The translations under genes were made by a program, and so were the position numbers. The notes beneath the pieces were generated by a model. It was given only the letters and a program-made list of their open reading frames with translations. It made no database searches and was not told the DNA's origin. Of a stretch of 7,414 nucleotides of DNA, positions 2,019-3,712 are shown piece after piece. The stretch is from Clostridia bacterium (GTDB taxonomy: Bacteria > UBA6262 > WVXT01 > JAUXBS01): positions 1 to 7,414 of the forward strand of contig JAUXDE010000088.1 of the NCBI GenBank assembly GCA_030618495.1, written 5' to 3'. How positions within the stretch are numbered: position 1 is the first letter of the stretch; every line of letters starts with the position of its first letter.

Positions 2019-2046
2019 TTGAATATATTTAATAATATTGTATAAT
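2019..2046 (+). promoter_or_regulatory. sigma-70-type promoter upstream of the glycosyltransferase
   Basis: TTGAAT (2019-2024), a 16-base spacer, then TATAAT (2041-2046). The predicted transcript start is near 2052-2054, at the left edge of the inverted-repeat element. The mRNA leader would then consist almost wholly of that element (about 210 bases before the ATG at 2264). It probably was the native promoter of the downstream gene before the element inserted (inference). Confidence 0.6.
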
Positions 2047-2050
2047 AATA

Positions 2051-2081
2051 GTGTGGTGTTTCTAACATAGCTTTACATTTG
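2051..2081 (+). repeat. left terminal inverted repeat
   Basis: Pairs with 2251-2281 (28 of 31). Read outward on the minus strand it contains an ATG at 2068 opening a frame of 27 codons to a stop at 1985. Here the ribosome-site equivalent reads AAATG rather than the AAAGG of the right copy. Confidence 0.75.
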
Positions 2082-2250
2082 AAGGGCAGGCTTTGAGATG
2101 GGTTCAAGGAAAGACGAAGAAGCCGCTCAAAGAGAGCCCTTTCCGTAGGGCTGTCGCCTTTTGTCCATAGTCTGCGTTGCTCGTCGCTTATGTATCGCAG
2201 TGGATACACCGCGCTCCTCGTTTCTTGACTTTGAAGCAAAATGCTTCCAG

Positions 2251-2281
2251 CAAAGGTAAAGATATGTTAGAAACAACACAC
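2251..2281 (-). repeat. right terminal inverted repeat, carrying RBS and ATG of the next gene
   Basis: Reverse complement of the left repeat with three mismatches. On the plus strand it contains AAAGG (2252-2256), a 7-base spacer and ATG (2264-2266). It then encodes the first six residues of the glycosyltransferase frame (MLETTH). Confidence 0.75.
2252..2266 (+). promoter_or_regulatory. ribosome binding site and start codon for the GT39-like gene
   Basis: AAAGG with 7-base spacing to ATG 2264 is the only good ribosome site near this gene. The ATG at 2177 lies inside the element without a site. The ATG at 2288 is preceded by a purine-poor CACACCAAAAT stretch. I therefore choose 2264, although 2288 may be the ancestral start. 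Confidence 0.6.
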
Positions 2282-3712
2282 CAAAATATGAAAAAAAGAT
2301 TTATAATAATCCTGTCATCCGTAACAGCAATTCGCCTTGTAATAATAGCTTTTATAGGTTTAATAAACGATGAAGCGTATTACTGGGTATGGAGCAGGCA
2401 TCCATCCCTGAGTTATTATGACCACCCACCGATGATTGCCTGGGTTATAAGAGTTTTTACCGGAGTTCTTGGCAGCAGTCCTTTTACAATTCATCTTGTA
2501 GGGTTATTATTCATTACGTCCTTTACGGTCATATTGTATGCCTGGGCAAAAGAGATGTTTTCCGCCAGGGATGCTCTATGGGGAACCGTAACCGTGCTTT
2601 TTACACCCTTGTTCTTTTTGGGCGGGTCAGTGCTTACCCCTGATGCAATTCTGTCTTTTTTCTGGGTGATAACGCTTTATGCGGTATTCCGGGCGTTGAA
2701 GAGCAGGAAACATTTTTACTGGTACTGGGCGGGTATTGCAGCAGGACTGGGCGCTATTACAAAGTATAGTATATTCTTTTTGCCGGCGGCAGTATTTTTA
2801 TACCTGATATTTTCAAATGAAAACCGCTGGTGGCTGAAGAAAAAAGAACCCTACATTTCATTTCTATTAATGGTTGTAATATTTGCTCCCGTACTGGTAT
2901 GGAATGCCCGGAATGATTGGGTGTCTTTTACCTTTCATCTGGTTTCAAGGCACAATGTATATTTTTCGGCTGGCCGCTTTTTACGGTTTATTGTATCACA
3001 GATGGTGCATATATCGCCTGTTGCATATATTTACTGCTGGATTTCATTTTTCTTGCTTTTCTTGAAAGGTTTTAAGAATAAGGACTGGATTTCCAGGTAT
3101 TTATTTTTCATGTCTTTCCCGCTGGTTGCGGGGTTTTCACTATCCACGTTTTATACGGATGCCCTGTCGCACTGGCCGGTATTTGGCTACGTGGGCGGAT
3201 TGATAGCTATCCCGGCAATAATTAAATCCAGGAATAAAAACAAGGTTCTTGTAACCAATATCGTCTTAAGTGTTGTCATAATAACGGTTTTCGCCGGCCA
3301 GGTAATCTATCCCTTTTTCAGTATCAAAAAGGACCCGACGAATGATGTTCATGGATGGAGTGAAGTTGGAAAACAGACAACAAAGATTTACTCAACCCTG
3401 CCGGATGAAAGCTTCCTCTTATGCGCTCGTTATGAAACGGGCGGACAGTTGAGTTTTGCGGTTAGAAAAGAGGTATATGTTTTACATCCGGGGCGGGTTA
3501 CAGCATTTAACTTCTGGCAAAAAGAAAAAGAACTGATGGGAAAAGACGCTCTTTATGTTACCCATTCGGGATGTTTTTATCCTCCTAAAAATATATACAG
3601 GTTCAAGTCGATAAAATTGCTGAAAGAAATACCAATTTACAGGGCAGGAAAGAAGGTGCGCACTTTCAGCCTGTATCACTGCCGTGATTTCCGGGGAACA
3701 AAAAGACGCTGA
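2264..3712 (+). CDS. GT39 (PMT/ArnT-like) membrane glycosyltransferase
   Basis: The protein has 482 residues from ATG 2264. Family members transfer a sugar from a polyprenyl-phosphate donor to protein, lipid A or another envelope acceptor, using an acidic pair in the first extracytoplasmic loop. Here that loop follows the first membrane helix and reads NDEAYYWVWS (residues 35-44, acidic pair D36/E37), followed by YYDHPP (51-56), the hallmark of the PMT_2 branch. About nine or ten hydrophobic segments follow, up to about residue 350. A soluble C-terminal domain of about 130 residues then opens with a DVHGWSEVGK-type motif and ends near GKKVRTFSLYHCRDF. Length and layout are complete for the family. 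The sugar and acceptor cannot be told from sequence. The N-terminal MLETTH is encoded by the right end of the inverted-repeat element; the usual hydrophobic start MKKRFIIIL begins at 2288. It is followed 51 bp later by a separately promoted tRNA gene. Confidence 0.9.
   Translation: MLETTHQNMKKRFIIILSSVTAIRLVIIAFIGLINDEAYYWVWSRHPSLSYYDHPPMIAWVIRVFTGVLGSSPFTIHLVGLLFITSFTVILYAWAKEMFSARDALWGTVTVLFTPLFFLGGSVLTPDAILSFFWVITLYAVFRALKSRKHFYWYWAGIAAGLGAITKYSIFFLPAAVFLYLIFSNENRWWLKKKEPYISFLLMVVIFAPVLVWNARNDWVSFTFHLVSRHNVYFSAGRFLRFIVSQMVHISPVAYIYCWISFFLLFLKGFKNKDWISRYLFFMSFPLVAGFSLSTFYTDALSHWPVFGYVGGLIAIPAIIKSRNKNKVLVTNIVLSVVIITVFAGQVIYPFFSIKKDPTNDVHGWSEVGKQTTKIYSTLPDESFLLCARYETGGQLSFAVRKEVYVLHPGRVTAFNFWQKEKELMGKDALYVTHSGCFYPPKNIYRFKSIKLLKEIPIYRAGKKVRTFSLYHCRDFRGTKRR

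Follow-up and report, generated by a model that had tools for sequence, protein, structure and literature searches.

Organization of the locus

The window, by which we mean the whole stretch of 7,414 nucleotides analysed, is an entire contig (C124) of a draft genome of an uncultured Clostridia bacterium, G000 (1.69 Mb in 179 contigs). It carries on the plus strand a gene for a membrane glycosyltransferase of the GT-C type (PMT_2; match to PF13231 at 4.2e-36), which, read from its ancestral start MKKRF, occupies positions 2288–3712 and is unbroken over 474 codons. A syntenic orthologue, 71% identical and with upstream neighbours common to both genomes, was found in the one same-genus genome used for comparison (G001, 76% complete). 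Comparison of the two genes gave a dN of 0.18 and a dS of 1.7; between G000 and G001 the gene is under strong purifying selection, on an average that includes the time before the insertion described below. Judging from this average and from the intact frame, the gene looks functional.

Upstream lies a putative native promoter (2019–2046, plus strand), composed of TTGAAT (2019–2024), a 16-nt spacer and TATAAT (2041–2046), with 10 of 12 consensus matches; it is also present at the G001 site. The start of the divergent gene on the minus strand (1930–1968) is itself leaderless-looking (TTGACA-17-TATTAT, followed by 9 nt and ATG), and so is that of its G001 counterpart. Between the divergent promoters (1973–2020) there is a terminator-like hairpin with a T-rich stretch, which is missing from the G001 site. 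A terminator scan of the window gave one match (1973–2001), located upstream of the mobile element described next, and none inside the element.

A family of TA-targeting MITEs

In the window, promoter and gene are separated by a 231-bp non-coding element (2051–2281), oriented from end B to end A on the plus strand, which has dozens of matches in G000 and none at the syntenic site of G001. Its left terminal inverted repeat (end B, 2051–2081, plus strand) agrees with a 31-bp end pattern without mismatches, and the right one (end A, 2251–2281, minus strand), which contains AAAGG and an ATG in outward reading, agrees with two mismatches (table of 56 ends). The left copy of the target is TA (2049–2050), the dinucleotide found beside most element ends in the genus. 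The right copy is CA (2282–2283); the left copy and the flank tables of the family point to an ancestral TA at this position.

The family was surveyed by pattern searches and in retrieved sequence stretches of G000 and G001. The 31-bp ends gave 48 matches in G000, 7 in G001 and none in the control. A whole-element query produced no matches in the other 39 genomes searched, while one degenerate end pattern recovered only the sister genome G001 among genome contigs and nothing in viral contigs. Thirteen of the 14 complete copies are 190–265 bp long and one is 533 bp, and they are thus too short to hold a transposase gene. TA, frequently as part of TAG, comes next after most ends, and in G001 the syntenic sites of the window gene, of recA and of dapB are empty. 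The repeat is therefore a TA-targeting MITE, with inverted repeats, small size, no transposase gene, many dispersed copies, a target duplication and empty sites.

The TA target duplication is that of MITEs derived from IS630/Tc1-mariner elements. This assignment was not adopted, however, since no match to the DDE_3-type transposase of a parent element (PF13358) was found in G000 or G001, an absence that counts for little, given the fragmentation of both assemblies and the 76% completeness of G001. Neither did the pattern matches include a pair of ends 1–2 kb apart on the same contig, as a candidate parent element. The best promoter sites within the element did not exceed the shuffled mean in nearly all copies, and the weak TTGACG-17-CAGCAT seen close to end A is not preserved in the window copy. 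Because the MITE itself holds no convincing promoter, the native upstream promoter remains the best candidate for driving the glycosyltransferase gene.

Two further arrangements were encountered in the survey. The 533-bp copy (L007, 801–1333, contig C1) seems to contain another palindromic repeat that has ends of its own (AGTGTCTTATTAAACAACCTATGTAA...), possibly a nested second MITE family. At L017/L077 (C21, 111–186), 14 bases separate two outward ends that share an orientation, which gives the impression of one element end set down next to another.

The empty site and the ancestral start region

At the syntenic site of G001, which has no element, the start region reads TTGAAT-16-TATAAT-8-ATGAAAAAG. 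When the flanks of the window element were joined and one target copy was kept, TTGAAT-16-TATAAT-8-ATGAAA was obtained, with the same spacing as in G001. In G001 the gene begins at MKKKF itself, with its ATG 8 nt downstream of TATAAT, no ribosome site, and none of the residues MLETTHQN that precede MKKRF in the open frame of the window. The more distant orthologues have MKRRF (genome G002) and MNRKF (genome G005) as their N-termini, begin immediately after the gene before them, and likewise lack MLETTHQN. The TATAAT-8-ATG spacing in the two genomes suggests that the ancestral glycosyltransferase gene was probably of the leaderless type. Leaderless starts as a general habit of G000 were considered and rejected: −10 boxes just 5′ of ORFs occur in 6 of 65 cases versus 9 of 65 in the control, i.e., they are not enriched.

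Read from the sequences of the filled and the empty site, the MITE has come to stand between the native start codon and its promoter. The first-pass annotation had named the element as the source of the ribosome site and start codon; since the element-free orthologue has neither AAAGG nor MLETTHQN, the element does supply AAAGG and the ATG at this locus. Its suggestion that an insertion is turned from a knock-out into a fusion does not apply here, as the coding sequence was spared: the MITE inserted downstream of the −10 box and upstream of the start codon.

A candidate start codon in the right inverted repeat

The right repeat, read outward, is CAAAGGTAAAGATATGTTAGAAACAACACAC, in which the Shine-Dalgarno (SD)-like AAAGG (2252–2256, plus strand) is followed by 7 bases (TAAAGAT) and the candidate start ATG 2264. 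This ATG is in frame with ATG 2288, 24 bases later, through a continuous MLETTHQN-MKKRF. The repeat proper (2251–2281) encodes MLETTH, and the last two codons of the eight-residue leader (2264–2287, plus strand) lie in the flank. The description of this arrangement in the first-pass annotation was thus accurate, including its remark that the start at MKKRF has no ribosome site of its own: no SD-like sequence was found 5′ of ATG 2288, where the anti-SD duplex energy is −0.3 kcal/mol, versus −4.0 kcal/mol for ATG 2264. The anti-SD was taken from the 16S tail of a same-order genome because the 16S of G000 is incomplete. This tail contains a normal anti-SD, and AAAGG matches the AAAGG in its complement (GAAAGGAGG). 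SD-like motifs precede 34 of 65 ORFs of G000, compared to 9 of 65 in a control window, and are missing from the remaining 31.

Two changes are private to the window copy. A T to G change created AAAGG, and the change of the right target copy from TA to CA converted the in-frame codon TAA into CAA. In trials with two random substitutions, an SD core arose about 6% of the time. At this chance rate the two changes are suggestive of selection, without proving it, and AAAGG may be coincidental.

Ends of other copies

The ends of the family had been supposed to carry an outward translation start as such. Among the 49 ends with an outward ATG, the SD core was found in the window end only; its anti-SD pairing is −4.0 kcal/mol, the runner-up reaching −1.4 and the median being −0.3 kcal/mol. 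Where the window copy has CAAAGG, the other ends mostly have CAnATG. The ATG belongs to a motif, ATGTTAG, that is conserved in nearly all ends and is present in both ends of the element, as expected of a recombination end recognised by a transposase, and it is an incidental part of the transposition end. The codon that follows the repeat in the ATG frame is TAN, set by the target duplication, and is a stop when it reads TAG or TAA; in most copies the frame closes at the duplicated TA or soon after. Three of the about 22 A ends facing a gene start are open and in frame (the window, the copy at dtd on C52 and a copy on C55), so that the proposed survey of other copies yielded in-frame fusions at about the rate expected by chance.

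The conserved ATG of ATGTTAG would suit ends built with an outward ribosome site and start codon that turn insertions into N-terminal fusions. We consider such a design highly improbable in view of the single SD core among 49 ends, the frame usually closed at or near the duplicated TA, the three in-frame cases among about 22, and the presence of the motif in both ends, which is what an inverted repeat recognised by a transposase would show. The window start looks like a one-copy exaptation, a private accident, rather than a translation-start device of the repeat.

Which start codon is used

We propose that a TA-targeting MITE, whose insertion is documented by the empty site, entered the 8-nt stretch separating −10 box and ATG in a gene that would have been of the leaderless type. 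With the native promoter kept upstream, the transcript would have acquired a structured leader of ~235 nt and the leaderless start would have been lost. The two private changes, the first giving AAAGG and the second removing the in-frame stop, would then have opened a start at ATG 2264, and its use would add MLETTHQN to the protein. This history as a whole is, in our estimate, evenly balanced between right and wrong.

As the start used, ATG 2264 is put slightly ahead of ATG 2288, at about even odds. It is favoured because it alone has SD pairing, because SD motifs are used in G000, and because the anti-SD in the same-order 16S is normal. RNA folding from the native transcription start (about 2053) counts against its use on native-promoter transcripts: the two inverted repeats pair, and AAAGG and ATG 2264 are buried in the resulting TIR:TIR stem, AAAGG being mostly paired and the unpaired probability being near 0 for ATG 2264 and near 0.5 for ATG 2288. 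Translation may thus have continued from ATG 2288 after the insertion, without an SD and from an A-rich unstructured stretch just 3′ of the element stem, with AAAGG and the open MLETTHQN frame arising by coincidence. The half-open state of ATG 2288 agrees with this, as do the starts of the closest orthologues at the MKKRF position (MKKKF, MKRRF, MNRKF), the lack of an SD-like motif in about half of the ORFs, the chance SD rate of about 6% and the chance rate of in-frame fusions. However, it would require SD-independent initiation far from the 5′ end in a gene that was probably leaderless, and anti-SD pairing is lacking upstream of 2288 (−0.3 kcal/mol); we regard continued use of ATG 2288 as a possible, if somewhat doubtful, explanation. 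The leader fold is very stable (−86 to −90 kcal/mol) and might even block translation, in which case the insertion crippled a gene now heading to decay. G000 has other members of this glycosyltransferase family, including one 47% identical, which favours this reading, but the frame of 474 codons is intact and purifying selection between G000 and G001 is strong, albeit as an average that includes pre-insertion time, and decay of the gene therefore seems unlikely.

Comparison with known elements

A literature search, limited in scope, found no prior report of a MITE with leaderless genes or of a MITE orientation bias. MITE ends fused as gene starts are already known from MITEAba12 of Acinetobacter, a short non-autonomous element that has start codons close to its ends, with a few codons behind them; in three copies the neighbouring CDS is reported to take its first four residues (MQQS) from the element (PMC6382973). 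An outward ATG putatively fused in frame in this manner was found here in the window, dtd (C52) and C55 copies. MITEAba12 is 111–114 bp long, is related to ISAba12, has predicted outward promoters and showed no orientation preference (PMC6382973), whereas the copies of the window family are mostly 190–265 bp long, target TA, contain no convincing promoter and are strongly biased in orientation. What is new compared to MITEAba12 is the empty site, the probably leaderless ancestor and a family-wide survey showing that the window case is exceptional. The locus is a clear instance, documented by an empty site in a sister genome, of a gene whose start region has been replaced by a mobile repeat, and it makes it possible to ask whether rescue of a leaderless gene can follow the separation of its promoter and ATG. 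The survey also makes clear that a start device cannot be deduced from the presence of an ATG at the end of a transposon.

RUP, Correia/NEMIS and ERIC elements are likewise mobile, short and palindromic; according to the available part of a review (PMC2229807), they end in TA, reside mainly between genes, give long stem-loop transcripts and in some instances fuse in frame to genes. They differ in size and host, being set apart here by description rather than by sequence, and fusion via an end-borne start codon is not among the effects described in that part. Copies of QMITE1 and QMITE2 of Coxiella extend into the 3′ ends of genes and contribute C-terminal codons to them, like some end-B copies of the present family; the effect reported in the available part of that study concerns gene 3′ ends, with no mention of start codons being supplied (PMC5896051).

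Orientation of copies and stop codons at the junctions

The orientation bias of the copies relative to genes is a more general question. Of the cases scored in G000, 20 of 22 A ends point towards the start of a gene, and 14 of 17 B ends point towards a gene's 3′ end (Fisher p = 6e-6, although the two ends of an element are not independent observations). Counted by hand with one vote per element and with the divergent window site excluded, 28 copies were forward and 4 reverse (binomial p = 2e-5). No promoter that would explain the bias was found in the element copies. The genes downstream, named by eye from N-terminal sequences only, include recA, dapB, surE, dtd, tsaD and rubredoxin.

As the empty G001 sites for recA and dapB show, the element entered these loci at the stop codon of the preceding gene. 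The C-terminus of the protein encoded there is preserved, because the target TA and the first G of the element remake TAG; a stop formed in this way at the junction recurs frequently among the 15 ends meeting a gene 3′ end. The family might accordingly be viewed as a one-way intergenic leader cassette, in which end B would close the upstream gene with the junction stop, end A would face the next start, and the orientation would be kept via an RNA-level effect on the downstream gene, the window copy having made a leaderless gene start from the element's own end; we think it rather unlikely that this is correct in full.

Insertions at the TA of a stop codon were noted for L009 (C10, upstream of recA), L089 (C70, upstream of dapB), L064, L019, L024, L057 and L030; in copies other than those at recA and dapB, the ORF on the upstream side extends into the repeat and terminates within it. 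Examples of the orientation bias are found at L009, L006, L022, L087 and window positions 2051–2281.
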